Shown: positions 7,660-58,907 of the stretch, piece after piece
How positions within the stretch are numbered: position 1 is the first letter of the stretch
Layout of the letters: each line of letters begins with the position of its first letter
Assembly (NCBI GenBank): GCA_016200485.1
Contig: JACQEP010000015.1
Span: 1-64,000 of the forward strand
Source of the DNA: Gammaproteobacteria bacterium
GTDB lineage: Bacteria > Pseudomonadota > Gammaproteobacteria > Tenderiales > Tenderiaceae
Reading direction: 5' to 3'
DNA: 64,000 nucleotides
Made by a program: the position numbers and the translations under genes
The notes under the pieces: model-generated
What the model saw: only the letters and a program-made list of their open reading frames with translations
What the model was told of the DNA's origin: nothing
Database searches by the model: none

Positions 7660-8742
7660 GTGTTACTTTATCTAACGGATTGGCTGGCGCAGTACTACAA
7701 AGGGTTCATGGTGTTTCAGTACCTTACCCTGCGGGCGATACTCGGGGTGCTGACGGCGCTTGCCATCTGTTTCATGATTGGGCCGGCAATGATCCGCAAG
7801 CTGAGTCAATATAAAGTGGGACAGCAAATTCGGGAGCTGGGTCCACAGAGCCATTTTAGCAAGGCGGGCACGCCGACGATGGGGGGGGCATTGATATTGG
7901 TATCCATCGCGATCAGCACATTGTTGTGGGGAAATCTTGCCAATCGATATCTGTGGGTGGTGTTAATCGTCACACTGCTCTACGGTGTGATCGGTTTTTA
8001 TGACGATTACAAAAAGCTGGTGCTGAAAGATTCGCGCGGGTTGGCGGCGAAATATAAATATTTGTGGCAATCTGTGATCGGGTTGGCGGCGGCGGTATTT
8101 CTCTATACTACGGCACAAACACCCGCCGAAACACAGTTGCTCATCCCCTTCATGAAGAACACGGCGATTGATCTTGGGTTGATGTACATACTGCTGGTTT
8201 ATTTTGTGGTTGTCGGGACCAGCAATGCGGTGAATCTTACCGATGGTCTGGACGGTTTGGCGATTTTGCCTACGGTAATGGTGGCGGGTGCGCTGGGGAT
8301 TTTTGCCTATGTTACCGGTCACATTAAATTTGCTGAATATCTTGGAATTCCTCATATCAACGGTGTTGGCGAGGTAGCCATTTTTTGCTCGGCCATCGTC
8401 GGCGCGGGGCTTGGTTTCCTTTGGTTCAATACCTATCCTGCCCAGGTGTTCATGGGTGATGTTGGTGCGCTTGCTTTAGGCGGGGCGCTGGGCATCATTG
8501 CAGTGACTGTGCGTCAGGAATTGATCTTGTTTGTAATGGGTGGCGTGTTTGTGATGGAGACAGTCTCCGTGATCATGCAGGTTGTGTCATTCAAATTAAC
8601 CGGCAAGCGCATCTTTCGTATGGCGCCCATACATCATCACTTCGAATTAAAAGGCTGGCCGGAGCCGCGAGTTATTGTTCGGTTCTGGATTATTACGGTC
8701 ATTTTGGTATTGATTGGATTGGCATCATTGAAGATCCGTTGA
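7660..8742 (+). CDS. mraY: Phospho-MurNAc-pentapeptide translocase MraY
   Basis: MraY is the integral membrane enzyme that transfers phospho-MurNAc-pentapeptide to undecaprenyl phosphate, making lipid I. It is 360 aa with about ten hydrophobic spans. Signature segments are [11 protein letters not shown], the Asp-rich [40 protein letters not shown] and the [15 protein letters not shown] loop. The start is GTG 7660, supported by AGGAGGAG at 7646-7653. Confidence 0.97.
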
Positions 8743-33707: not shown

Positions 33708-33810
33708 TCAAAGTTATGTTTCCGAATGAACTTAACTTACCGCCAGGGATTCGGTGGATACTCCGGTTGCGTTAAACGATCGAAATCAGGAAGATTTAGG
33801 GGAAAACCAT

Positions 33811-36800
33811 ATGCGCGTTATTGCCAAGTTACTTATGCTTAGTCTATTGACCACGCCAGTTTGGGCGGATGGCAATGATCCGGCGCCAATCCCTCAGGAA
33901 GTGATTGATAAAGTAGTGGCGCGTCCTCTAGAGAGCGGGGGAAATCTGTTGCCACTGCGGGTTGAGCAAAAATTAGATGCTACCTTGGAACAGCTTGATC
34001 GGCTCGAACGTAGCCGTATTTCCGCAAACCTGACGCAGGCCGATGCTGCCAGTTTGTCAGTTAACAGCAGGGATTTCGAAGCGCTACGTTTAGAAGCGCG
34101 TAGTCAATTAACGGCGGCTCGAAGCCGTTTGCTTAAGTCCGGTTTGACCTCGCAAGTCAAAAAGCTGGATGCAATGGCGGTGATGGTGGAAGATCGTTTT
34201 GAGCGCGTCGCTCAAGCGCTAGGATCATTGCATAATGCCAAAGATGATGCTGGACGCAAGAATGCCAAAGAACAGCTAAAAGGTGTGCTGCGCAAATTGC
34301 ACAAACCTGAGGATCCAACAGCATTTCAACATCCGATTACTACCTTTGGCTATGATGTTCCACTGAAGTCAAAGCCCCAACAGCCCGCGACGGATTTGCC
34401 TGGCTATCTGGCGTTGGGTTCACCGCGAGGTGTGCAACTAGCCTTTAATGGTGATCTTCTATTGTTGGCGGGTACTCCGCCTGTAACGCCACCAGAAGCA
34501 ACACAGTGCAGTTACACCGCGGCAGATTTGGACAAGAGCGCCACGGCTCAATTCGAGGTGCGTGCCACCCCTGAAATCACAGCGCTTGCCGATTCGCTCG
34601 ATTATTCTCCTGTCAAAATATACAAGTGGGTGTACGACAATATTGCCTATGAGCCTTACTACGGCTCACTTAAGGGTGCACAGGGTGCGTTGTTGTCGCG
34701 CGCCGGGAATGATACTGATCAGGCTTCGTTGTTAATCGCTTTGTTGCGCGTTTCCAATATTCCTGCCCGTTATGTCAAAGGGCAAGTCTGGGCAATGGAT
34801 GCGACATCAGCGGGCGCGAATGCGAAGATCGCCAAATGGTTGGGCGCCAAGAGCTACGATGCCGCCGCGAACATGTTGTCGCAAGGACGTAATCCGAGTG
34901 TTGGGTTTATTACCAATGCCAGCAGCCAAAAGATTGGAGTTTCGTTTGTGCATGTGTGGGTCGAAGCCTGTGTGCCATATGCGCATTATCGTGGGGCGAG
35001 GGTCGACACCAGCGGTAATCGCTGGATACCGCTGGATCCCGCGTTCAAAGAAAAGACTTATCAGGCAGGCATCGCTACCAATGTCAGTTTCGATTACAAC
35101 AGCTATTTAGCCAATCGCAAAAACGGCCCTGACAGTCTGCCGCATGAAGCCTATGCGCAGCAGGTCGAGACCAGTATCAAGTCTTCCAATGCGAATGCGA
35201 CGTTAGAGGATGTTCCCTATAGCGGCCGGACTAATCCAATGCGGATCGATGTGATGCCGGCCAGTTTACCTTTTTCTGTCAACCAATTCCTGGCGTGGGC
35301 AGGCAGTACCTCTGCTGAGACATCGTCATTGCCCGATAGTCATCGATACAAGTTTAGTATTAAAGTAAGCAATTCAGCCAATACACAGCTTGCTGCTACG
35401 ACACTGCAATTACCGGAACATATCTTAAAGCGCATTACCTTGTCGCCCAAGGGTGCGACGGCTGCGGATCAGACCGCACTTGACAGCTGGCGCCTGGATG
35501 GCAGTGTGAGCTCTGCTGCGCCGTGCACGATTAATACGTTGCCCGTTGTGAAATCAGAGGGCGTCGACGTGGTGGCTGGTACAGCAGCAGTGGGCTTATG
35601 TACGACAAATAACCGTTTAAATTTACAGATGCTGTTACCCGAGCTCGCAGCCGGTGACTGCAATTCCGTGCCCGCGAGTGCGGCCTGTTTGAACGGCGTG
35701 ACCTACACGAACATCGGCGCCGCCAATTATCATGCCTTGCAGGCCTACGGTTTTCAGGCTTCCAATCAACATTTGGCGGCGCGGGGGGAGAAGCTATTGG
35801 CGGCGGTCAGGAATATTGCCAATCCCAATACTAATCTTGAAGAGACCGAAGGCGAGTATTTGAATTTGGTTGGTCTCAAGTACATGCGTTATTTCAGCGA
35901 TGCCAATAAGACTGTCGGTAGGCTGGATGGTGGGTCTGGTGAGAGTGGTAATCATCTGGGATTGATCTCATCGCAGATGAAGGTGGCTTATCTCTTCGAT
36001 CTTCCCTTCGCGGTGAATCGTAGCGGTTTTCTGGTCGATGTGCCGGGTGGGCGTAGCCGCAACGTCGATTTAACGTCCGGTGCACTGGTCTACAAGACCT
36101 TCCTGTTGTCTGGGTATAGTGCGTCGGCCTATGAGTCATACATCTGGCAGGAAAACTCCCGCATGGATGCCGTTTCGACGGTGCGTGGTATTCAGTATGC
36201 GCGCGAAACCGGTATCGAGGTATTGACACTAACGACAGCCAATTGGAGTGTGGCAGGTGACACCGCCTGCGCCAACACCACTAGCCAGTGTTACAAGTTT
36301 ACCCACAATACCAATGCGGCTCTCAATTATTCCACCGCTGAAGTCAACGCCATCAAGGCCAACTACATAGATGATGGCAGGACGGTCACCATTCCGCGCA
36401 GCCTGATCCTGTATAACAATTGGAAAGGATCAGTCTATGTCGCGGAAAAAAATGCACTGCCAACTTCGGCACAGGCATCATTCATCATTGGTGGCACCTA
36501 TGCGGGTGGTTACACTACTACCACGCCACTGATATTCAGTTACTCGCCCACGCTCAATACTGGGTATTTCAACCCCAGCACGGTGCCATCGACCGCCAAC
36601 CCATTGGGTTTACCGTTGATCACCATCGGCGGCGGCGGTGTGGGTAATGGCCGGACTCACTACAATTCCTGGGCCGGTGATCCGGTCAACATGGTCACGG
36701 GGAACGTTTACCACACCGAGCGCGATATTTCGATTCCGGGTCGCGGCGGGTTGCCGATCGTATTCGAGCGGTCTTATAACAGTCGTGCAGCAACCCTGGA

Positions 36801-39800
36801 TACCACATGTGCACCAATGGGCTGTGGTCGGACCCATAGCTTCAATCACTATCTCAAGTTCTATGGCGTGGAAGGTGGGATGGCCAAAGTATCCTGGGTG
36901 GATGGCACAGGTGGCGAAAAGTTTTTCTCAACTACCGCCCATACTAATGGCGATATCACTCTCGGTACCACACTGAGTAATCCGCCCGGTATTTTCGCTA
37001 CCTTTAAACGTGAAGCGAGCGGGGTCTATACCCTCCGCGAGAAAAACGGCTTGACGTACACCTTCGCCAATGTCGCGGGGACATCAACCGGTGGCCAGCG
37101 CGCGCGGATGGATAAGATTGTGGACGCAAATGGCAATACATTGAACCTGGTCTATGACGCATCCAATCAGCTCACGCAAGTCAAAGATACTGTCGGTGCC
37201 AGCGGCCGTGCATTGACGTTTACCTATACCGGTGGACGCATTACCCAAATCACCGACTTCGCCTCGCCGGTACGCAGTTATCAATACAGCTATGAGGCCG
37301 ATGGCGATCTTGCGTCGTTCAAAAATCCCCTGGCCGTGTCTTCGCCTGCGACGCAGCCGCCGGTGAATTACGCCTATTACACGACGGCGGATGGCGCGAA
37401 TCTAAATCACGCGCTCAAGACCTATACGCTGCCACGCGGCAACGGCATGAAATTCGAGTACTATGCCGATAGCCGTGCTTTCCGCCATTCCACGTTGGCG
37501 TGCGCGACCGCTGCAACATCGCCGACGTGCCAGGTCAACACCTTCACTTACAATGACTTCCGCCGCGAGGCGGTGCAGGTCAGTGAACGTGGTTATGCCC
37601 GGCGTTTCTTCTTTGATCAATACGGCAATCCGTTACAGATCGTCGAAGAAAACGGCGCTACCCATGATTACACGTACGACGCCGCCAATCCCTACAATCG
37701 TTTGAGCAAGATCGATGCCCTCGGCTACAAGACGCTGTATGCCTACGATGCCAGCGGCAACGTCACCAGCATCACCACGCCACGATTGGCCACCGTTACC
37801 TTCGACAATTACAACACGTTCAATCAGCCGCAGCGCGTTAAGGACGCACGCGGCAACTATACGGTGATGAAATACGATGCCAAGGGCAATCTGCTTGAAT
37901 CAATCAAGCTCAAGACCGGGATAGTGCCGGTGATTCCCTATACCCCAGTCGCTACAGACGTCATCGCCTGGACCATCAATACCTATGGCGCCTATGGCAA
38001 TCTGCTCACCGCCAAGCCAGTGAAAAATGCCGCCAGCCCTGCCGGCCAAGGGCCTGTTATTACTTATGCCTATGACGCCAATAGTCTTTATCCCACCAGC
38101 ATCAGCCGGACAGGGGATAAAAATGGCGATGGGGTGAGTGATGCCGCCGATACCAAAACGCTGGTTTACGATATTGTGGGTCGCGTCACGACCGATATCG
38201 ACGCTGACTGGCACACCACCACCTTTGTATATGACACCGTCGACCGTGTCACTTCAGGGACCGATGCCATCGGTAAGCCACGTAGTTACAGCTATGATCA
38301 AAACGGAAATCTGACTGAAAACAAACTCGTCATCAGTGCCGTCACCTATGACCGGGCGGTGTACAGTTACGATCTCTCAGACCGCCGCACCCAGGTGACC
38401 GATTTCGGTAATGGCAGCGGCAATGCCGTCAGCACTACCGTCTATGATGCCACCGGCAATCTGGTCAAGATCACCGACCCGGACGGATTTTCGCTAGGCT
38501 TTGAATATGACGAAGCTAACCGCGCCGTGCGTGCCTTCGACAAGGAAGGTAATCATGTCTATATGAGTCGCGATATCGACGGCAAACCCAAATGCACCCG
38601 CGACCCCAACGGCAATGCCGTCTTCTACACCTACTGGGATAAAACCCGCGACGGCCGCCTGAAACGGGTTACCGCACCGAGTGCCAACGCCTGCCCCGGC
38701 AGTGCGCCCACCACTGGCGTGCGCGCGGTCGAGTACGACTACGACGCCAACGGCAATGTCATCGCCACCACCGAGATCGGCAGCGACAACACTACCCGTA
38801 CCCATTTCACCAGCTACGACGAACTCAACCGCCCTGTGCAAGCCATCGGCCCGACCTACACCGATGCCACGCTCGGCAGCATCCGCCCCGTCACCCAATA
38901 CAGCTACAATTTGCTCGGCCATTTGACTCAAGTGCAGGCTGGCTATTGCGCCTCTAGCACCACCGGTTGTGCCGCCGCCGCAGTGCTGAGCCCGCAACTG
39001 ACCACGGTTGCCGACGACTTCGGCCGCAAAATCAAAGAGACCGACGCCAACGGCAAGTTCTGGAGCACCAGCTACGACATCAACAACAACCCCACGCAAA
39101 TCACCGACGCCAAAGGCCAGCTCACCGCAATGAGCTGGAACTACGGCCATCTGTTGGCGACGCGCACCAACCTTGCCGCCGGCAACGTCGCGCTCACCTA
39201 CAACAACCTCGGCCAAGTGCAAACCGCCAACACCAAGACAGCCGGCAGCGCCACCACCGACCTGATCAACTACAGCTCTACCTACGACAGCCTCAATCGG
39301 CTCAACACTATCACTGACAATCGCGGCGGCATCGTGCTGGACTATGACTTCAGCCCCGGCGGCCTGCTCAACAAATTCAAAGACAGCCACGGTAACGAAA
39401 CCAATTATGTCTACGACGCTGTCGGAAGACTCGCCAGTCTCTGGGCCCCGAACTACGGCACCGTCTCGTATCGTTACGACGCCGGTGGCCGCCTGCTCGA
39501 AAAATGGTTACCCAACGGCGTCAGCGCCCGTTACACGTACAACGCCGACAACACGCTCGCCAGCCTCATCAACCGCCGCACCAGCACGGCCATCATCAGC
39601 CAGCACAGCTACCTCTACGACGCCTACGCCAACCGCCGCCAGCAGGTCGAAACCATCAACGGCGCCGCGCTCACCAACAACTACACCTACGACAGCCTCA
39701 ATCGATTGCTCACCGCCGCCAACGGCACCGTCACCCAGGATCAGGGTTACAGTTATGATCCGCTCAATAATCTCACGAGCAAAACCCTCGGCACCCCCGT

Positions 39801-41160
39801 CACCGCCACCACGAACTACACCTACGACGTCGCCCACCAACTGCTCGAAACCCGCGATGCCACCAGCACCCTGCTCAGCGCCTTTGTGCTCGACGCCAAC
39901 GGCGCCCTCACCAAAAAGTGCGAAGGCGGCACCGTCACCCGCACCGCCACGGATTGCAGCGGCACCACTGTCACCAGCCTCAGCTACGACCCCTTGAACC
40001 GCCTCACCCAAGCCGTCAAAGGCGCCACTACTGAAAGCTACGCCTATGACGAACAAGGCCGCCGCATCCGCAAGATCAGCGGTGCCACCACAACGAACTA
40101 CCTCTACACCGGCCCCGATATTCATGCCGAATACGGCACGGCGTATACCACGCCCAACGCAATCACCGTCCACGGCCCCAACGACGACGACCCCATCATG
40201 CGTCTCACCGGCACGGGCACCGCCGCCGTTCCCACGTACTATCATCAGGACGGCCTCGGCAGTGTCGTCGCCACCAGCAGCAGCACCGGCACCGTCGCCG
40301 CCAGCCAGCGCTTCGACGCCTGGGGCAACGTCCTCAGCGCCAGCGGCGCCATCGCCCAGTATGGCTACACGGGAAGAGAGCCGGATGCCACCGGCTTGAT
40401 CTACTACCGCGCGCGGTACTACGATCCCACCATCGGACGGTTCACGCAGCGGGATCCGATTGGGCTGGCAGGTGGAATTAATCGGTATGCGTATGTGGGG
40501 AATAATCCGGTTAATTACACCGATCCGAGGGGCTTGTTCATCTCCTCGTTCTCATCGATCAACGCGGGCTCGTTCTTAGGGTCGGGAGGTGGTGCGAGTA
40601 AGGGCGCGTCTAACACCAGCAGCTCAGTTTACGCCGCCCTGGACCAGTGGTTCTCGTTGGCGGATTTGACGGCGGGGAGGCAAAGCCTGGGTGGAAGCTC
40701 CTGGGGAAGCCAGGGATTTGGCAGCAGTTACACCAATGGTTGGCCTTCGAGCTGGTATCCGGATAATTGGTTCGCGGATACTCGTATACAGGTGGCGGCG
40801 GCTGTTCCAATGCCTGCCCCCGTCGTTATCCCCGATTTCCGATTGCCAGCACCTAATCCTTGGTGGCTGTTGTTATACCCTACACCTGCGGGTGAGGGTT
40901 CGGATATCATTCCCCCTGGCCCCTATTTCAATGATAAATCGAGGCAGTCAAAACCAGATGGATGTCCAACTGGAACTATTCCGATTGACCAGGCAAAGGG
41001 GAAATTCAAGTGGGATAAGGATGATGTGCATAAGATTAAGAAAAGGGCTGACGCCAATCCGACAGACTGGACGGGAGTATCACCAAATGGACATATTTGG
41101 ACCGGAGACGGAAAGGGGAATGCCGTTGATAATGGTCATTGGACGGGGTTGATTAAATGA
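33811..41160 (+). CDS. Secreted transglutaminase-fold RHS polymorphic toxin
   Basis: From ATG 33811 the product is 2449 aa. Layout: signal peptide (cleavage near PVWA-D, residue 19), coiled coil (about 60-170), transglutaminase-like domain (about 265-420), beta-rich linker, DUF6531-type RHS entry near 957 (NMVTGNVYHTERDISIPGRG), many YD repeats, the RHS core end DPIGLAGGINRYAYVGNNPV (about 2225-2245), a Gly/Ser/Trp-rich spacer, and a tip of about 75 residues. In the transglutaminase domain the His (HVWVE) and Asp (WIPLDP) are present, but the expected Cys segment reads AGNDTDQASLLIALL without Cys. The tip (PIDQAKGKFKWDKDDVH..) resembles polymorphic toxin type 33 as I remember it. RHS shells encapsulate toxic tips. 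The next gene overlaps by ATGA and looks like immunity. An upstream GTG at 33754 is unlikely because it precedes the signal peptide. Confidence 0.88.
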   Translation: MRVIAKLLMLSLLTTPVWADGNDPAPIPQEVIDKVVARPLESGGNLLPLRVEQKLDATLEQLDRLERSRISANLTQADAASLSVNSRDFEALRLEARSQLTAARSRLLKSGLTSQVKKLDAMAVMVEDRFERVAQALGSLHNAKDDAGRKNAKEQLKGVLRKLHKPEDPTAFQHPITTFGYDVPLKSKPQQPATDLPGYLALGSPRGVQLAFNGDLLLLAGTPPVTPPEATQCSYTAADLDKSATAQFEVRATPEITALADSLDYSPVKIYKWVYDNIAYEPYYGSLKGAQGALLSRAGNDTDQASLLIALLRVSNIPARYVKGQVWAMDATSAGANAKIAKWLGAKSYDAAANMLSQGRNPSVGFITNASSQKIGVSFVHVWVEACVPYAHYRGARVDTSGNRWIPLDPAFKEKTYQAGIATNVSFDYNSYLANRKNGPDSLPHEAYAQQVETSIKSSNANATLEDVPYSGRTNPMRIDVMPASLPFSVNQFLAWAGSTSAETSSLPDSHRYKFSIKVSNSANTQLAATTLQLPEHILKRITLSPKGATAADQTALDSWRLDGSVSSAAPCTINTLPVVKSEGVDVVAGTAAVGLCTTNNRLNLQMLLPELAAGDCNSVPASAACLNGVTYTNIGAANYHALQAYGFQASNQHLAARGEKLLAAVRNIANPNTNLEETEGEYLNLVGLKYMRYFSDANKTVGRLDGGSGESGNHLGLISSQMKVAYLFDLPFAVNRSGFLVDVPGGRSRNVDLTSGALVYKTFLLSGYSASAYESYIWQENSRMDAVSTVRGIQYARETGIEVLTLTTANWSVAGDTACANTTSQCYKFTHNTNAALNYSTAEVNAIKANYIDDGRTVTIPRSLILYNNWKGSVYVAEKNALPTSAQASFIIGGTYAGGYTTTTPLIFSYSPTLNTGYFNPSTVPSTANPLGLPLITIGGGGVGNGRTHYNSWAGDPVNMVTGNVYHTERDISIPGRGGLPIVFERSYNSRAATLDTTCAPMGCGRTHSFNHYLKFYGVEGGMAKVSWVDGTGGEKFFSTTAHTNGDITLGTTLSNPPGIFATFKREASGVYTLREKNGLTYTFANVAGTSTGGQRARMDKIVDANGNTLNLVYDASNQLTQVKDTVGASGRALTFTYTGGRITQITDFASPVRSYQYSYEADGDLASFKNPLAVSSPATQPPVNYAYYTTADGANLNHALKTYTLPRGNGMKFEYYADSRAFRHSTLACATAATSPTCQVNTFTYNDFRREAVQVSERGYARRFFFDQYGNPLQIVEENGATHDYTYDAANPYNRLSKIDALGYKTLYAYDASGNVTSITTPRLATVTFDNYNTFNQPQRVKDARGNYTVMKYDAKGNLLESIKLKTGIVPVIPYTPVATDVIAWTINTYGAYGNLLTAKPVKNAASPAGQGPVITYAYDANSLYPTSISRTGDKNGDGVSDAADTKTLVYDIVGRVTTDIDADWHTTTFVYDTVDRVTSGTDAIGKPRSYSYDQNGNLTENKLVISAVTYDRAVYSYDLSDRRTQVTDFGNGSGNAVSTTVYDATGNLVKITDPDGFSLGFEYDEANRAVRAFDKEGNHVYMSRDIDGKPKCTRDPNGNAVFYTYWDKTRDGRLKRVTAPSANACPGSAPTTGVRAVEYDYDANGNVIATTEIGSDNTTRTHFTSYDELNRPVQAIGPTYTDATLGSIRPVTQYSYNLLGHLTQVQAGYCASSTTGCAAAAVLSPQLTTVADDFGRKIKETDANGKFWSTSYDINNNPTQITDAKGQLTAMSWNYGHLLATRTNLAAGNVALTYNNLGQVQTANTKTAGSATTDLINYSSTYDSLNRLNTITDNRGGIVLDYDFSPGGLLNKFKDSHGNETNYVYDAVGRLASLWAPNYGTVSYRYDAGGRLLEKWLPNGVSARYTYNADNTLASLINRRTSTAIISQHSYLYDAYANRRQQVETINGAALTNNYTYDSLNRLLTAANGTVTQDQGYSYDPLNNLTSKTLGTPVTATTNYTYDVAHQLLETRDATSTLLSAFVLDANGALTKKCEGGTVTRTATDCSGTTVTSLSYDPLNRLTQAVKGATTESYAYDEQGRRIRKISGATTTNYLYTGPDIHAEYGTAYTTPNAITVHGPNDDDPIMRLTGTGTAAVPTYYHQDGLGSVVATSSSTGTVAASQRFDAWGNVLSASGAIAQYGYTGREPDATGLIYYRARYYDPTIGRFTQRDPIGLAGGINRYAYVGNNPVNYTDPRGLFISSFSSINAGSFLGSGGGASKGASNTSSSVYAALDQWFSLADLTAGRQSLGGSSWGSQGFGSSYTNGWPSSWYPDNWFADTRIQVAAAVPMPAPVVIPDFRLPAPNPWWLLLYPTPAGEGSDIIPPGPYFNDKSRQSKPDGCPTGTIPIDQAKGKFKWDKDDVHKIKKRADANPTDWTGVSPNGHIWTGDGKGNAVDNGHWTGLIK

Positions 41161-41573
41161 CGAGGGGCATAAGATTTAGCGCTTCTTTTAGGGCGCGTCA
41201 TCCCACGAAAACGGCTCAAGAAGTTGTTGATCAGTTCGGCTTGCAACCAGATGTTATGCATTCTGTGGGAAGTCAGCGCATGACTCCGAAAGGTAATTTG
41301 CTAAACGGAGTTTACGAAAGAACCTCCGTTTTATTTCCCTTTGATGTTGAAGAATACGATTCCGTGGAAGAATTTCTTCTTCATATGCTCGACGCTGATT
41401 TTTTGAAGGATGAGGCGCGTCTTAGTGAATTTGTTTCTACTGGAGGTAGGTTGGAATTCTTTTTAGGAATATTCTGTGAAAATAACGGTGGTATCGAGTT
41501 CGACACGGATTTGATGAGAAGGCTGGCGGCAAAAGGTGTCTCATTATCTTTGGATATTTACGGAAGCACATAG
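41157..41573 (+). CDS. DUF4279-like immunity protein candidate
   Basis: The product is 138 aa and cytoplasmic (no signal). The layout resembles DUF4279 proteins: an N-terminal beta strand (IRFSASFRAR), a VVDQFGLQPD segment, and the ending LAAKGVSLSLDIYGS, which is typical. DUF4279 members often sit behind polymorphic toxin genes as immunity proteins. The ATGA overlap with the RHS gene and the AT-richer composition shared with the RHS tip support acquisition as a toxin-immunity cassette. The toxin target is not known, but a cytoplasmic immunity protein argues for a cytoplasmic target. Confidence 0.75.
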   Translation: MTRGIRFSASFRARHPTKTAQEVVDQFGLQPDVMHSVGSQRMTPKGNLLNGVYERTSVLFPFDVEEYDSVEEFLLHMLDADFLKDEARLSEFVSTGGRLEFFLGIFCENNGGIEFDTDLMRRLAAKGVSLSLDIYGST

Positions 41574-51581: not shown

Positions 51582-51997
51582 TTACATCTCCTTCGCCGCA
51601 ATCCTGCGCAGCGCCTCATTCACATCGATTATTCTGACATTCTGATACTCAGCCACTGTGAGCAACGGGTGGTCCCCGGTGACGACCCAGTCCGCCTTGG
51701 CAGCGATGGCAGTCGCGATGACTACATCATCATCGGGATCGGGCGCGAGAGGGGTTGCGGGTGTACCACGGCGGCGAGCTCCGAATAGCGATCTACTAAC
51801 TGATCGATGGTGAGCATTGAGGCGGCTATCTTCTTCTCGAATTTGCGTCGGCCCAGGATATCGGTCAATTCTGCCAGCAGTGGCAGGCTGGTATATAGCT
51901 TGATCTGTTTGTCGCGTCCCGCCAGCAACAGCCGGTAGGGATTGCCGCCCCACAACATGGCCGAGGTGACCACATTGGTATCGAGCACCAGGCGCAT
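51582..51997 (-). pseudogene. PIN-domain toxin, frameshifted
   Basis: Two frames together make one PIN (VapC-like) ribonuclease. The N-terminal frame from ATG 51997 reads MRLVLDTNVVTSAMLWGG with the first catalytic Asp and stops at about 51722. The C-terminal frame reads PDPDDDVVIATAIAAKADWV and VVTGDHPLLTVAEY with the other acidic residues and ends at 51582. Removing two bases from the CTCTC run near 51748 restores HPQPL-APDPDDDVV. The start overlaps the antitoxin stop (TGATG). Either a real inactivating insertion or a sequencing error. Confidence 0.8.
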
Positions 51998-52242
51998 CAG
52001 CTATTGGTCTTGGCGCGGCGTTCCGCGCGCATGGCGCGTATCTCCTCAGCCACTTCCTCCGGTGACATCGCAGGCGGCTCTTCGCTCTGAGCCATCCGTT
52101 CCAATGCGGTGAAGAACTCATCCTGATGCTGTGCCCGCAACTGCTCGCGCAACCATTTTTCCAGCGCCTTTTGCGATAGCAGCCCGGCGCGTTGCGCCTC
52201 TTTCGCCAATTGGTCCGGCAGTGTGATCTTTATGGTTGTCAT
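51997..52242 (-). CDS. Antitoxin of the PIN-type pair
   Basis: From ATG 52242 (AGGAG upstream, eight bases away) the product is 81 aa. It starts MTTIKITLPDQLAKEAQRAG, a ribbon-helix-helix-like DNA-binding start, and has an acidic C-terminal half (SPEEVAEEIRAMRAERRAK) suited to bind the toxin. The reading frame is open to 52413, but the extra sequence lies in repeat DNA. It is directly upstream of the PIN frame. A decayed paralogue with the same opening residues is at 53450-53652. Confidence 0.8.
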   Translation of the reverse strand: MTTIKITLPDQLAKEAQRAGLLSQKALEKWLREQLRAQHQDEFFTALERMAQSEEPPAMSPEEVAEEIRAMRAERRAKTNS

Positions 52243-52330
52243 GGCCGTGCTCCTGACAGAAGATAATTCATATTTACCATGATAAAGCCCGTACAGAATA
52301 GGTGCAATGAAAAGAGCCCATTCCCCTGTT

Positions 52331-52380
52331 CCCTCTCCCACCTGTGGGAGAGGGTGGCCCGGAGGGCCGGGAGAGGGAGA
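52331..52380. repeat. CCCTCTCCC palindromic repeat
   Basis: CCCTCTCCCACCTGTGGGAGAG at 52331-52352 is a hairpin, followed by GGCCCGGAGGGCC, also palindromic. It belongs to the same family as the elements near 49032 and 52702. No gene lies in 52243-52829. Confidence 0.65.
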
Positions 52381-52443
52381 AGACGCCACGGGCTCCGGGG
52401 CACAAACCGGCACACAGGGAATGTGGCACCCCCGGTTTTCAGG

Positions 52444-52538
52444 TGTCGGAAAACTTTACACTTTTCACCTGGGGATTCAGTCGCACCAAACAAACCCCAT
52501 ATAAACCATGATGTTATAAAAATTAGCATGGGAATTGC
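52444..52538 (+). promoter_or_regulatory. Inactive duplicate of the sigma-54-type promoter region
   Basis: TGTCGGAAAACTTTACA (52444-52460) and about 90 following bases are a diverged copy of 53757-53850. In this copy the -24 element reads TAGC instead of TGGC (52524-52527), while TTGC (52535-52538) is kept, so the essential GG is lost. No RHS gene follows. Similarity continues to about 52610. A relic of a duplication. Confidence 0.65.
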
Positions 52539-52701
52539 TTTTGCTTTTCCTCCCCCTCCCCCCAATTGCGAGGGCTAAGCTCTTGGCATGGCCTCTGTCG
52601 TGAAGGACAGCCCTAAAGATTAAATACGTTCACTCGGTTCTAAACCCATAAATAACTATTGATCCGGCTTGATGAAGTTTTAACTTTGATCGGTACGGAT
52701 A

Positions 52702-52740
52702 CTCCCTCTCCCGCTTGGGGGAGGGCTGGGGACAAGGGTG
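52702..52740. repeat. CCCTCTCCC repeat, third copy
   Basis: CTCCCTCTCCCGCTTGGGGGAG followed by GGCTGGGGACAAGGGTG is the same family as at 49032 and 52331. It lies 90 bases upstream of the intact toxin-antitoxin pair. Confidence 0.6.
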
Positions 52741-52829
52741 CGACTTCAAATATATTAATGCCGTATCAATAGGCTGTTTTGCCTATGCTGTAGTTGCATA
52801 TCTTAACCAAGGGACGTATCTTGTAATTT

Positions 52830-53063
52830 ATGGCCATATCTGTTGAAAAACTGACCGAAGCCGTCTTATCGCTGCCGAGCGAGGCGCGGGCATTGCTTGC
52901 CGATCGTTTGGTAGAAAGCCTGGATCCTCTCGCGGACGAGGATGTTCGTGATTTATGGGCTGCCGAGGCGCTCCGTCGGCGTGATGAGGTTCGTGAAGGG
53001 AAGATCCCCGCTATTTCTGGCGAGGCCGCCCTGGAGCAGGTACGAAATTCCCTCAAGAAATGA
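52830..53063 (+). CDS. Addiction-module antitoxin (TIGR02574-like)
   Basis: The product is 77 aa, helical and acidic, with the recognisable pattern LTEAVLSLPSEARALLADRL, VESLDP and a C-terminal EALRRRDEVREGKIPAISGE. This family of short antitoxins is normally encoded just before a ParE/RelE-fold toxin, as here with an ATGA overlap. It should bind and inactivate that toxin and may repress the operon. A related antitoxin is at 61777. Confidence 0.88.
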   Translation: MAISVEKLTEAVLSLPSEARALLADRLVESLDPLADEDVRDLWAAEALRRRDEVREGKIPAISGEAALEQVRNSLKK

Positions 53064-53350
53064 AGTTTGAGTTTCATCCCCAAGCGCTTGCCGAGTTCGA
53101 GGAAGCTGCACATTATTACGAGCGATGCCAGCATGGTCTGGGGCTTCGTTTCTATTCAAATGTCGAAGCAACGCTTCAAAATATCATTGAAAACCCCGGG
53201 CGCTGGCCGGTTCTGCACCAAGATGTTCGTCGTTGTCTCACGCGGGTATTTCCGTATGCGGTGCTTTACACCGTGGAACCCGAATATGTGCTTGTTGTGG
53301 CAGTCATGCATTGTCACCAAAAACCCGGATATTGGAGTGCTCGGGTATAA
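53060..53350 (+). CDS. ParE/RelE-superfamily toxin
   Basis: The product is 96 aa and starts KFEFHPQALAEFEEAAHYYE, with the middle NPGRWPVLHQDVRRCLTRVF and the ending VAVMHCHQKPGYWSARV; these are the standard ParE/RelE-fold segments. Length is normal and nothing is missing, so the pair looks functional. ParE members poison gyrase and RelE members cleave mRNA; the sequence alone does not decide. Part of a cluster with two decayed PIN-type pairs. Confidence 0.88.
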   Translation: MKFEFHPQALAEFEEAAHYYERCQHGLGLRFYSNVEATLQNIIENPGRWPVLHQDVRRCLTRVFPYAVLYTVEPEYVLVVAVMHCHQKPGYWSARV

Positions 53351-53374
53351 CCGGGTGTCCGGCTAATTTCCAGG

Positions 53375-53466
53375 TCACCATCGGTGGTCGCCAGCAGCAG
53401 CTTGAAGGGCGTGCCGCCCCAGATCAGCGCCGAGACGACCACATTGGTATCAAGAACGATCCGCAT
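53375..53466 (-). pseudogene. PIN-domain toxin, N-terminal fragment only
   Basis: Reading from ATG 53466 gives MRIVLDTNVVVSALIWGGTP and FKLLLATTDGDLEIS, the first 30 or so residues of a PIN toxin (compare the gene at 51997). Homology is then lost beside the end of the ParE-type toxin gene. The later catalytic acids are absent. Paired with the decayed antitoxin directly upstream. Confidence 0.75.
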
Positions 53467-53652
53467 CGTCGGCGTTGGCCTGACGGGTGCGGCGCTCAGC
53501 GCGTACCGCCTTGACCTCGGCGACGATTTCCTCGTCGCTCATCGGCGGAATGCGTCCTTCAGCAGTTGGGCCAACGCTTCGGGCGTGAGCAGCCCGGCGC
53601 GTTGCGCTTCCTGCGCCAATTGATCCGGCAAAGTAATTTTTATGGTCGTCAT
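53450..53652 (-). pseudogene. Antitoxin of the decayed PIN pair
   Basis: From ATG 53652 (AAGGAG seven bases upstream) the frame reads MTTIKITLPDQLAQEAQRAG, LLTPEALAQLLKD and then stops. The remainder (EGRIPPMSDEEIVAEVKAVR) is in a different frame and ends at 53450. A deletion with frameshift removed the middle. The opening residues are nearly identical to the 52242 antitoxin, so the two pairs are duplicates. Confidence 0.75.
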
Positions 53653-53756
53653 GGTCATACTCCTTAAAAAAACAGCATATTACGAATTCGTCCCCCTTAA
53701 TACTCAAGGGCGCGCTGAATAACAGAGTGCAAGACTCGGCCTCTCAGCCTTTCAGG

Positions 53757-53945: not shown

Positions 53946-54182
53946 ATGAGACGAATGAAGTGTTTTGGCTTTATTGCATCGTTATATCTTTCGATAGATC
54001 AAATTCGGAACCGGTTTTTCTGTAAAAGTTACCTGGGTGTTGGATTCATGGCGATTTTGTTGTGGGCGCCACAACTTTCTTTCGCGGCGGGATCTTATTG
54101 TGCAATAAGCGGTTTATCTGGGGGGGGAAAGCTTATGTGGTTTTCTCACATTAGAAGAAGCTGCCGCCTGGGGTTGGGATAA
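53946..54182 (+). CDS. RHS gene 5' part: signal peptide, out of frame with the body
   Basis: From ATG 53946 the frame encodes a basic stretch (RNRFFCKSYLGVG), a signal peptide core (FMAILLWAPQLSFAAG) and SYCAISGLSG. It then runs through eight Gs at 54120-54127 and stops at 54182. The following frame, open from 54109, continues as the RHS protein. One G fewer joins them as SGGESLCGFLTLEEAAAWGW. This is therefore the beginning of the gene listed next. The signal peptide start could be ATG 53955, or ATG 54048 if the n-region is short. Confidence 0.75.
   Translation: MRRMKCFGFIASLYLSIDQIRNRFFCKSYLGVGFMAILLWAPQLSFAAGSYCAISGLSGGGKLMWFSHIRRSCRLGLG
54120..54127 (+). repeat. Poly-G tract (G8) at the frame junction of the RHS gene
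   Basis: Eight consecutive Gs stand exactly where the signal-peptide frame must change to the RHS frame. A length of seven (or four or ten) would put the two in frame. Such tracts are typical of phase-variable surface genes, and also of sequencing errors. Confidence 0.8.
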
Positions 54183-54234
54183 CTCCCTTCTCAAAGCACA
54201 ATCCCCATCTGGATCTCCATATACATTTGGAGGG

Positions 54235-57200
54235 GTGGTTTATTATAAACACGCGCCTGACGGCGCTCAACCCGCCGCAGGCTGGACTAATTATTGGTGG
54301 GGTTACTATAATTATGGGAACGGCCCATATTACTATTACCCAATTAGTTATAGCCCATCAACTCCTCCCCGCAACAAAAATTATTCTGGTTCGTCATGTA
54401 GCTATATTGGTAATCCTATTCATGTTGGAATGGGGGACAAATTCCAGAGTGAGACGGATTATCAGGGCGTTGAATCTATGTTATCGCCACGATTTACCCG
54501 GTACTACCATAGCGATGCCCAAGGGGCATTCAGATCATTCGGGTCGCTATGGCGACACAACTATGATCGTTCCATCAAAGTCTTTCGCAATTCTTCCGCA
54601 AGTTTTGCTTACGTTACCAGAGCTGATGGTATGGGGATGTCTTATATATTGGTAGGAGATCGCTGGATTGCGGACAGTGATATTAATGACAAGCTCACCG
54701 AATACCGTGATCTGACCGGGAATACAACGGGCTGGCAGTTAACAACTAATACTAATGACATCGAAAGCTACGATGCCAGCGGTCGTCTCCTCTCAATTAC
54801 CAATCGAGTTGGAGAAACCCAGACGTTGACATATGACGCTCAAAACCGCCTCTACCAAGTCTTCGATTCGTTCAGTCGTGCGATTACCTTTGCCTACGAT
54901 ACCCAAAACCGTATACAAACCATGACTGATCCTGAGGGCGGTGTTTATATCTATGGTTACGGCGTCAACAACAATTTAATCTCGGTCGCTTATCCCGATA
55001 ACAAAACACGTACCTACTTGTACGAAAATACCAGTTTCCCGCATGCACTCACCGGCATCATTGATGAAAACGGCAATCGTTTCGCTACTTATGCCTATGA
55101 CAGTCAAGGCCGCGCGATTTCCAGCGAACACGCTGGTGGCACAGAAAAGGTCAGTTTGGCTTACAACACTGATGGCACCACCACGGTAACGGATGCCCTA
55201 AACACCTCCCGCACCTACAGTTTTCAAACGATATTGGGTGTTGTGAAAAAAACTGGGCAGTCGCAGCCCGGTGGTTCGGGCTGTGGTCCCGCCTCTTCGG
55301 CTACCACCTACGACCCCAACGGCAACATCGCCTCGAAAACGGATTTCAACGGCACAGTCACCACCTACACCTACGACCTCACCCGCAATCTCGAAACCGC
55401 GCGCACCGAAGCGTATGGCACCGCCAACGCCCGTACCCTCAACACCCAATGGCACGCAACCTTCCGGCTTCCCACCGCTATCGCCGAACCCTTGAAGCTC
55501 ACCACCTATACCCATGACGCCAACGGCAACGTGCTCACCCAAACCGAGCAAGCGACGATTGATAGCAACGGCAGCCAAGGCTTTGCCGCAACGCTCGTTG
55601 GTTCACCGCGCGTCTCGACTTACACCTACAACACCTTCGGCCAGGTATTGACGGTGAATGGCCCACGCACCGATGTCAACGACACCACCACCTACACCTA
55701 TGATACCCAGGGCAATGTTAGCTCTGTTACCAACGCCCTCAACCACCTCACCCAGATCACGAATTATGATGCCTCCGGCCGTCCGTTGCGCATCGTCGAT
55801 CCGAATGGCCTCGTCACCACCCTGACCTATTCACCCCGTGGCTGGTTAACGAGTCGCAACGTCGGCGGCGAGAGCACCGGCTTCCAATACGATGGTGTCG
55901 GCCAATTGCTCAGCGTCACGCTGCCGGACAACAGCGTCATCGCTTACACCTACGATGCCGCGCATCGGCTGACGGACATTCAAGACGCCGCCGGCAACCG
56001 CATCCACTACACGCTGGACTTAATGGGCAATCGCACGAAGGAAGATGTCACCACCGCGACCAACAGCCTGACCCAAACCCGCTCCCGCGTGTTCGATGCC
56101 CTCAGCCGCCTGGCACAAGCCTTAGGTGCCCAGAATCAAACCACCGCCTATCAATACGACGCCAGCGGCAACGTGACGCAAATCACCGATCCCGCCAGCA
56201 ATGTCACGCGTAATGGTTACGATGCGCTGAATCGTCTGACGCAAGTCACCGATGCCTTGAGCGGCGTCACCCAATACCAATACAACGCCCAGGACCAGCT
56301 CACCCGCGTCACCGATCCGCGCGGCAACATCACCCGTTATAGTTACGACGGCCTCGGCAATCTCACGCAACAGATCAGCCCCGATACGGGTGCCACTGCC
56401 TTTGGTTATGATGCCGCCGGTAATCTCATCACGCAGACCGACGCCAAGAGTCAGACCACCACCTATTACTACGACGCGCTCAATCGTCTGACCCAGGCGA
56501 CGTACAGTGATGCCACCACCACCGTCTACAGTTACGATCAAGGTATCAACGCCCTCGGCCGTCTGACGAGCATCACCGATCCCAGCGGCAGCACCGCCTA
56601 TCAATACGATGCCCACGGCCGTGTTACCCAAAAGACTCAAACCCTGGGCAATATCAGCCTCAGCGTCGCCTATCACTACACCGCCCAAGGCCAGCTTGAC
56701 CAGATCAGCTATCCGTCCAGCGTCATCGGGTATAGCTACAGCAACGGCAAACCCAGCAGCCTCAGCCTCAACGGCCAGCCACTGCTCAGCAACATCAGCT
56801 ACGTTCCTTTTGGCCCCGTCACCGGCTGGAGTTGGGGCAGCAACAGCACCACGGACGTCAGCCGCCTCTATGATCTTGATGGCCAACTCACCAGCTACAC
56901 GCTGGCCAACGCGACACAACAACTGAGCTACGCCAGCACCGGCAACCTCAGCACGATCACTGACGCCGGTAATGCTGCCAACAATCAAAGCTACGGTTAC
57001 GATGCTTTGTATCGTCTCGCCACCGCCAATGGTGTCTACGGCGCGCAAAGTTACGGTTACGACGCCAACGGCAACCGCAGCAGCGCCACGCTCAACGGCG
57101 TTACCAACAGCTACACCAACGCCGCCACCAGCAATCGCCTGCAAAGCGCGAATGGTAAGACCTATACGTTTGATGCTAACGGCAACATCACCAACGACGG

Positions 57201-58389
57201 TGTTCACAGCTACAACTATGATGCCCGCAACCGCCTCGTCGGCCTCAACACCGGCGTCAGCTACACGATCAACGGCCTCGGCCAACGCATCGCCAAAACG
57301 ATTCCCGGCATCGACACTGGCAACACAACAGCAGGTGATGCCAACGGCGACGGACTAATTAACGCCCAGGACTACAGCGCCATTTTGAACCACATCCTCG
57401 GCACACCTGCCAGCAACGACGCCGATTGCAATCAAGACGGCCAGGTCAACGTCCAGGATCTGGTGTGCATCAACATCAAGATCAACCCCGCGCTGCAAAC
57501 CGCAGGCGGCAAGACATTGTTTGTCTACGACGAACAAGGGCAACTCATCGGCGAATACGATCAAACCGGCACCCCGATCCAGGAAACGATTTATCTGGGT
57601 AACTTGCCCGTCGCTGTCGTGAAGAACAACGTCGTCTATCGCCTCTACGCCGATCATCTCAACACACCGCGTGCAATTGCCGACACCACCAACAAAGTGA
57701 TGTGGAGCTGGAACAGCGACGCCTTCGGCACCACCGCCGCGAATGAAGATCCGGATGGGGATGGGGTGAAACTCACCTACAACTTGCGCTTCCCCGGCCA
57801 GTATCTCGATCAGGAGACGGGGCTGCATTACAACTACTTCCGGGATTATGATCCGCAAACCGGACGCTATGTTCAGAGTGATCCGATAGGGCTTGATGGC
57901 GGGTTGAATACGTACACCTATGTAGCGGGGAATCCGCTGAATTGGGTTGATTTGTTTGGCTTGAAGGTTCTTAACCCTAACGGCTGGCCTGTGTCACCTG
58001 ATGTAATGAATTCGCTTTGGGAATTTAATCGACTTATTGGCTGTAACAAAGATGTTGTCATTACCGGTGGTGATCGTTCTGCGGATTCGAAGTTGGGCGC
58101 TGGTTCTAGTAGTAGTCATGTACAGCACATTGCTGCTGATATTATGGTGCCTGGACAATCACACTTGGAAACCGCAAATCAGGCTGGACAAAGCGGCTTG
58201 TTTGGTGGTGTTGGTTGGTACGAAGAAGGATACCGCGGTCCAAATGGAGAAGGCCCACATACACATGTCGATCTGAGAAAGAACGGCCCGGCCCGTTGGG
58301 GACACCCGAGAAAAGGTCAAGCTATGCATGGATATTTTCCAAAATATGACGTTAAACTGAATCCATCTACTTGCGGGTGTGATCAATGA
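54235..58389 (+). CDS. RHS polymorphic toxin with dockerin-like segment and M15-peptidase-like tip
   Basis: The body (1384 aa from the formal GTG 54235; the frame is open from 54109) has a Tyr/Trp-rich N-terminus, an RHS entry (MGDKFQSETDYQGVESMLSP), and about forty YD repeats. A dockerin-like pair of calcium motifs lies at about residues 1030-1085 (GDANGDGLINAQD and DCNQDGQVNVQD). The RHS core follows with PGQYLDQETGLHYNYFRDYD and SDPIGLDGGLNTYTYVAGNP. The tip of about 140 residues is AT-richer. It contains SSHVQHIAADIMVPG and GEGPHTHVDLRK, matching the SxHxx.xAxD and HxH zinc motifs of M15 DD-peptidases, so it may cut peptidoglycan. The next gene overlaps by ATGA and is exported, as expected for immunity to a periplasmic toxin. 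Confidence 0.88.
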   Translation: MVYYKHAPDGAQPAAGWTNYWWGYYNYGNGPYYYYPISYSPSTPPRNKNYSGSSCSYIGNPIHVGMGDKFQSETDYQGVESMLSPRFTRYYHSDAQGAFRSFGSLWRHNYDRSIKVFRNSSASFAYVTRADGMGMSYILVGDRWIADSDINDKLTEYRDLTGNTTGWQLTTNTNDIESYDASGRLLSITNRVGETQTLTYDAQNRLYQVFDSFSRAITFAYDTQNRIQTMTDPEGGVYIYGYGVNNNLISVAYPDNKTRTYLYENTSFPHALTGIIDENGNRFATYAYDSQGRAISSEHAGGTEKVSLAYNTDGTTTVTDALNTSRTYSFQTILGVVKKTGQSQPGGSGCGPASSATTYDPNGNIASKTDFNGTVTTYTYDLTRNLETARTEAYGTANARTLNTQWHATFRLPTAIAEPLKLTTYTHDANGNVLTQTEQATIDSNGSQGFAATLVGSPRVSTYTYNTFGQVLTVNGPRTDVNDTTTYTYDTQGNVSSVTNALNHLTQITNYDASGRPLRIVDPNGLVTTLTYSPRGWLTSRNVGGESTGFQYDGVGQLLSVTLPDNSVIAYTYDAAHRLTDIQDAAGNRIHYTLDLMGNRTKEDVTTATNSLTQTRSRVFDALSRLAQALGAQNQTTAYQYDASGNVTQITDPASNVTRNGYDALNRLTQVTDALSGVTQYQYNAQDQLTRVTDPRGNITRYSYDGLGNLTQQISPDTGATAFGYDAAGNLITQTDAKSQTTTYYYDALNRLTQATYSDATTTVYSYDQGINALGRLTSITDPSGSTAYQYDAHGRVTQKTQTLGNISLSVAYHYTAQGQLDQISYPSSVIGYSYSNGKPSSLSLNGQPLLSNISYVPFGPVTGWSWGSNSTTDVSRLYDLDGQLTSYTLANATQQLSYASTGNLSTITDAGNAANNQSYGYDALYRLATANGVYGAQSYGYDANGNRSSATLNGVTNSYTNAATSNRLQSANGKTYTFDANGNITNDGVHSYNYDARNRLVGLNTGVSYTINGLGQRIAKTIPGIDTGNTTAGDANGDGLINAQDYSAILNHILGTPASNDADCNQDGQVNVQDLVCINIKINPALQTAGGKTLFVYDEQGQLIGEYDQTGTPIQETIYLGNLPVAVVKNNVVYRLYADHLNTPRAIADTTNKVMWSWNSDAFGTTAANEDPDGDGVKLTYNLRFPGQYLDQETGLHYNYFRDYDPQTGRYVQSDPIGLDGGLNTYTYVAGNPLNWVDLFGLKVLNPNGWPVSPDVMNSLWEFNRLIGCNKDVVITGGDRSADSKLGAGSSSSHVQHIAADIMVPGQSHLETANQAGQSGLFGGVGWYEEGYRGPNGEGPHTHVDLRKNGPARWGHPRKGQAMHGYFPKYDVKLNPSTCGCDQ

Positions 58390-58907
58390 ATTTATTTAAA
58401 AAAATATTTGTAATGGGAGTGTTTGCAGTGGCTTCCGGGTTTTGGCCTGTAAGCGGGTTTTGTGCTGGACCAAAAGAAGACGTATTTGAGACGAATTTAT
58501 TTCAAACAATTGAGATATCCTCGTTTGCGATTAATCCTGAGAAGCTTACAAAGCTCACAGCCGTAGATAAAAAAGACTTATTGCTGGCAAAGGATGTGCT
58601 AAGGAGGTTTTTCATCAGTCTGGATGATTCTGATGGAAATTATAATCAATATTTGTCACCAGCATTTTTTGCCGGAAAAACGTTAAACCGACAAGATATT
58701 AGAAAAAAAATCATAGCTGACGAAACTGATCTTTTAAAAATTGGTATTACTAATTTTGATTTTAATGGTAACCGTAAGACGGTTGTATTTGATTTCTATG
58801 CCATTGTCTATGTAGAGGGTGTTTTCTCTCTTGGGGAAGGAAAAGCTCAATTGGAGAAACATACTGGCTCGTGGAATATCTCCGGAATAACTATTAATAG
58901 ACCGTAA
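58386..58907 (+). CDS. Exported immunity protein candidate
   Basis: The product is 173 aa and starts with a signal peptide (KKIFVMGVFAVASGFWPVSG, cleavage near FCA-G, residue 27). I do not recognise the mature part; it has helical (DKKDLLLAKDVLRRFFISL) and beta (FDFNGNRKTVVFDFYAIVYV) sections reminiscent of small NTF2-like folds. The ATGA overlap with the toxin, low GC content and periplasmic address fit immunity against the M15-like tip. This role is inferred from context. Confidence 0.7.
   Translation: MNLFKKIFVMGVFAVASGFWPVSGFCAGPKEDVFETNLFQTIEISSFAINPEKLTKLTAVDKKDLLLAKDVLRRFFISLDDSDGNYNQYLSPAFFAGKTLNRQDIRKKIIADETDLLKIGITNFDFNGNRKTVVFDFYAIVYVEGVFSLGEGKAQLEKHTGSWNISGITINRP

Follow-up and report, generated by a model that had tools for sequence, protein, structure and literature searches.

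Poly-G/C tracts that undergo slipped-strand phase variation control exported and surface proteins in Neisseria, Campylobacter, and Helicobacter. In addition, homopolymeric tracts at the 5′ ends of genes have been described as an inactivation device, with inlA among the genes concerned (Orsi et al. 2010, PMC2831843). The MafB proteins of Neisseria are Sec-exported polymorphic toxins accompanied by immunity genes (PMC4287609).

The gene analyzed here encodes an RHS protein and lies in a contig of a Tenderiaceae genome; the whole stretch of DNA that was analyzed, 64,000 nucleotides in length, is referred to as the window. As in the loci of Neisseria, Campylobacter, and Helicobacter, a G/C run of at least 8 nucleotides occurs toward the 5′ end of a gene for an exported protein, and the length of the run sets the frame between signal peptide and body. 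The locus differs from those systems in that the target is an RHS toxin, the host is apparently free-living and possesses MutS and MutL, and a single assembled run length is known. Like the tracts in PMC2831843, the run lies near the 5′ end of the gene and could break the frame reversibly, but that survey dealt mainly with poly(A) and poly(T), whereas the window gene contains a G/C run. With the RHS/YD-repeat polymorphic toxins, the protein shares a DUF6531 domain, RHS repeats, the Rhs-associated core, a variable C-terminal enzyme, and a small gene directly 3′; unlike those toxins, it has a Sec signal-peptide leader that is separated from the body by the G run. We read the protein, like MafB, as a Sec-exported polymorphic toxin with a candidate immunity gene, although MafB lacks RHS repeats and poly-G control of MafB is not described in the passages of PMC4287609 consulted. 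A literature search for poly-G phase variation of Rhs toxins returned no relevant report, an absence that is no proof. Both poly-G phase variation and RHS toxins are familiar on their own; the choice of target is the point of interest.

The RHS locus and its G8 run

On the plus strand of the window, a signal-peptide frame (53946-54182; 78 aa in translation) runs from an ATG at 53946 to a TAA at 54180-54182. Its hydrophobic, signal-peptide-like stretch is followed by a cleavage-like site, read from the sequence, with ...KSYLGVGFMAILLWAPQLSFA before and AGSYC after the cut. The RHS body frame (54109-58389, plus strand) is bounded upstream by a TAA at 54106-54108 and stays open until the TGA at 58387-58389, with no further stop over ∼1,430 codons, which bears out the first-pass annotation of the rest of the 4.1-kb frame as intact. 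As assembled, the two frames are out of register with each other, and their overlap is restricted to 71 bp (54109-54179) around a run of eight Gs (54120-54127, plus strand), which is the proposed slipped-strand switch; the length of this run sets whether the product is complete or truncated. The run thus lies at exactly the position between signal peptide and RHS body that was noted initially. The frames most naturally meet at the Gs themselves, although any point in the 71-bp overlap could in principle be where the frame changes. The two frames are described separately throughout. The codon score of the signal-peptide stretch (53946-54182) is weak, and the coding score of the gene shifts frame weakly near the G8. 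A promoter scan gave a score no better than that of shuffled sequence.

The body comprises a leader (54128-54384), DUF6531, RHS repeats, a dockerin-like stretch, and the Rhs-associated core (Pfam PF20148, PF05593, and PF00404; NCBIfam TIGR01643 and TIGR03696). Both hallmarks of RHS polymorphic toxins, the repeats and the Rhs-associated core, are recognized by Pfam and NCBIfam. The dockerin type I-like stretch (PF00404, 30.9 bits, residues 1033-1081 of a 1384-aa ORF, window 55100-57500) is unusual for an RHS toxin. A variable C-terminal domain is present 3′ of the core (57961-58386, plus strand), with a weak, above-cut-off match to M15 peptidases and endolysins: in a scan of the tail alone, PF08291 scored 24.3 bits (cut-off, 23.2), whereas it fell below the cut-off in the whole-protein scan, and phrog_894, an endolysin, matched the tail with an E value of 9.3e-8. 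These similarities make the tail a candidate peptidoglycan-cutting toxin tip. The RHS stop codon overlaps, in an ATGA, an ORF for a 173-aa protein with a signal-peptide-like N terminus (58386-58907, plus strand). Scans of Pfam and NCBIfam found no family match for this protein, which is, by its position only, a candidate periplasmic immunity protein. Single-sequence structure predictions of the RHS C terminus and of the 173-aa protein were of too low quality for use, and a PDB sequence search yielded no useful match.

The window contains a third RHS gene (33755-41161) that is unbroken, encodes 2468 aa, and has no G8 run. Directly 5′ of the split RHS gene, small toxin-antitoxin-like ORFs cluster at 51582-53707, including one for a ParE-like protein (53060-53350).

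Split and unsplit genes with G/C runs in the genome

First-order statistics predict ∼1.5 G runs of at least 8 per 64 kb, and a second G8 in the window (7881-7888) is inside an intact mraY gene. The 3.06-Mb genome contains 29 G/C runs of at least 8, fewer than expected when the first-order statistics of the window are scaled up. The sequence context was examined for all 29: ∼12 are intergenic or upstream of genes, 13 are in frame-continuous genes, 3 split genes, and 1 (L020) is unassigned. L020 (202 aa), which matches no family, was not counted as a control for this reason. The 13 unbroken genes with G8-G9 runs encode MraY, HolB, CobS, RseC, a PfkB kinase, an HpcH aldolase, ManC, two GGDEF/EAL proteins, a NUDIX protein, a nucleotidyltransferase, an Fe-S protein, and a DUF498 protein; given that they are unbroken, general homopolymer miscalling is unlikely.

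All three gene-splitting runs hit genes for exported proteins, namely, the window RHS gene, a second, SpvB-like RHS gene, and a PEP-CTERM gene. The second RHS gene (L091:3829-10723; G000:C6, minus strand) is split by a G8 at C6:56378-56385, where a 455-aa SpvB/FG-GAP frame joins an 1844-aa FG-GAP/RHS frame with a colicin-DNase/WHH tip; a same-family homologue has a single 2138-aa frame that is alignable to both halves. In the gene for the PEP-CTERM exported protein (L011:838-1774; G000:C6, minus strand), a G8 at C6:16995-17002 divides the signal-peptide frame from the PEP-CTERM frame, and no relatives of this protein were found among 142 other genomes of the class. Coding scores switch frame near the run in both of these genes, and the breaks of all three genes are in one register. 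The split of broken genes between exported proteins (3/3) and the other G8-G9 genes (0/13) gives a Fisher p of 0.0018 under a null of random G8 miscalls, on small numbers.

The chance that a run coincides with a given 71-bp interval is ∼7e-4, and three runs in this genome fall on a frame junction. The G8 by itself is not exceptional; its coincidence with a frame junction is. A bare chance run was rejected as an explanation: runs of at least 8 are not enriched genome-wide, yet three of them are at frame junctions.

Several other runs lie near gene starts or in intergenic regions. A G8 (L264:3693-3700; G000:C16:163692) near the start codon of an M1-peptidase-like gene, 3′ of a 690-aa ORF, could affect translation start. 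Two intergenic runs are possible promoter-spacing switches: a G11 (L004:1501-1511; G000:C4:165542) ∼60 bp 5′ of a chemoreceptor-like gene and a G12 (L265:2860-2871; G000:C24:100859) ∼155 bp 5′ of a signal-peptide-bearing gene beside a receptor-like gene. Apart from these two, the longest G/C runs are an intergenic C15 (L266:5789-5803; G000:C22) and C10 (L267:1858-1867; G000:C18).

Runs in RHS homologues

RHS homologues with the DUF6531 region were collected by profile and protein searches in three sets (64, 80, and 20 genes; species partly overlapping). Scanning genome contigs with a single protein gave no match; an alignment-based scan recovered the homologues. In a typical homologue, a variable leader of ∼80 to 130 aa connects the signal peptide to the body, all in one frame. 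By our own reading of the sequences, an in-frame signal-peptide-like stretch is present in 71 of the 76 evaluable homologues, so that the product is usually fused. Homologues lacking a G tract had been named at the outset as evidence that would count against a switch; most homologues are indeed of this kind, a result that is still compatible with switching where the tract is present.

Such runs are found in ∼5 of some 160 homologues. The runs of at least 8 in the first set are a C13 (L039), a G9 directly 5′ of the ATG (L032), and a G8 (L112), all at most 450 bp before DUF6531, a limit that was chosen after this set had been seen and was then fixed for the second set. There, the C10 of L205, the G11 of L213, and the G8 of L209 (one gene with L112, counted in both sets) are all in the leader, which makes up 12% of the second-set sequence scanned (3/3, p = 0.0018; p = 0.015 without L209). 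The third (phylum) set of 20 genes had no run of at least 8, and none was found in ∼380 kb of RHS body sequence across the sets. Run-bearing homologues are out of frame in 2 of 3 cases, compared with 3 of 73 run-free ones (p = 0.01). Weaker constraint in the leader may account for the presence of G/C runs there.

The anatomy of the window gene is repeated in the MAG of Lysobacterales bacterium Ru_enrich_XN (contig coverage ∼55), where both of the RHS genes sampled carry a run inside the signal peptide. In L205, the frame that reads MNGYVRGFLIVLAAVA terminates in the C10 run (L205:4050), and the body proceeds in a different frame. In L213, a hydrophobic signal-peptide frame terminates in the G11 run (L213:4106) and is again not in register with the body; because there is also a weaker start that is in frame, the splitting of signal peptide from body by G11 is graded as probable. 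The bodies of both genes are otherwise open for >1,400 codons each. A search for close relatives of L213 or L039 that have the run found none. In L039 (G336:C30), the C13 follows a possible ATG, precedes the signal peptide, and is currently in frame; the G9 of L032 (G011:C186) is immediately 5′ of the ATG.

A putative export switch and its alternatives

We propose, with a probability of roughly 0.6, that the G8 acts as a contingency switch, by slipped-strand changes in its length, on an exported RHS polymorphic toxin. The proposal draws on the observed frames, runs, and domains, on the genomic controls, and on the recurrence in homologues. The assembled G8 state would be OFF, because translation from 53946 ends at 54182 and would yield the signal peptide and leave the body unexported. 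Replication slippage would alter the run length and bring the signal peptide into frame with the body (ON). The ON product would be an RHS protein exported by Sec, the M15-type peptidase tip of which may cleave the peptidoglycan of neighboring cells, and the producer would be protected by the exported 173-aa protein encoded by the overlapping downstream gene. A long G/C run within the gene, a product set by run length, and a placement beyond chance (on small numbers), as expected of a slipped-strand locus, are all found here. The original suggestion of a phase-variable switch is thus supported in part, by two more exported genes split at a G8, intact G8 controls, leader-confined runs, and the C10 and G11 splits elsewhere.

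The main rival is an incidental frameshift at a hotspot, without programmed switching: a one-off slippage, in nature or in culture, would have knocked out a costly or unneeded toxin, and the run would not be maintained as a switch but would mark an early pseudogene. Homopolymers are mutation hotspots, and breaks would gather in variable exported genes because these are dispensable; moreover, the RHS genes L228, L256, and L257 are broken without any run. The genome encodes MutS and MutL and the G8 is short, so that slippage would be slowed; switching may therefore be slow, and the break may be a mere hotspot knock-out. Against such an origin stand the ∼1,430 codons without another stop, the recurrence of runs in unrelated homologues, at the signal peptide or in the leader but not in the bodies, and a pattern common to three exported genes of one genome, and we consider it rather unlikely. 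A sequencing or assembly error in the G8, with the real gene unbroken, is improbable: homopolymer miscalls are frequent on some platforms and the three breaks share a register, but 13 G8-G9 genes are correctly read in the same assembly, and the same anatomy is seen in a separately assembled MAG.

Two further explanations leave the DNA unchanged or dispense with the signal peptide. Ribosomes or RNA polymerase might slip on the G run, a possible slippage site around which both frames overlap, and so yield some full-length exported protein. Joining the frames would, however, take a move of +1 (or -2), a direction in which ribosomes slip less often on such runs; furthermore, the runs of homologues vary in kind and register (C10, C13, G9, and G11), most homologues have none, and an Rfam scan at the window RHS locus found no match, so that we regard recoding as very improbable. 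Alternatively, the RHS body might be translated alone from an internal start in its frame (GTG 54235, ATG 54430, or ATG 54478) and function with no signal peptide, in which case the upstream frame would not belong to it. This is hardly credible, given that GTG 54235 lacks a well-spaced ribosome-binding site, the body frame 5′ of it resembles the leaders of homologues, nearly all evaluable homologues have the in-frame signal-peptide-like stretch, and the exported protein encoded downstream is suggestive of the periplasm.

The slipped-strand switch remains the preferred reading. The same kind of switch on the C6 RHS gene, with its DNase tip, and on the PEP-CTERM gene could make a clonal population a mosaic of toxin states. 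More broadly, and tentatively, the sequences suggest that some environmental proteobacteria might possess separate poly-G/C switches for each exported RHS toxin, at or near the signal peptide, which would generate clonal mosaics of toxin sets. Phase variation is known chiefly from surface structures of host-associated bacteria that face immunity or phages. If the proposal holds, the competition weapons of free-living bacteria would be bet-hedged within clones, and some of the "broken" RHS genes in assemblies would be explained; a clonal population would then be a phase-variable interbacterial arsenal, with an independent switch for each toxin.
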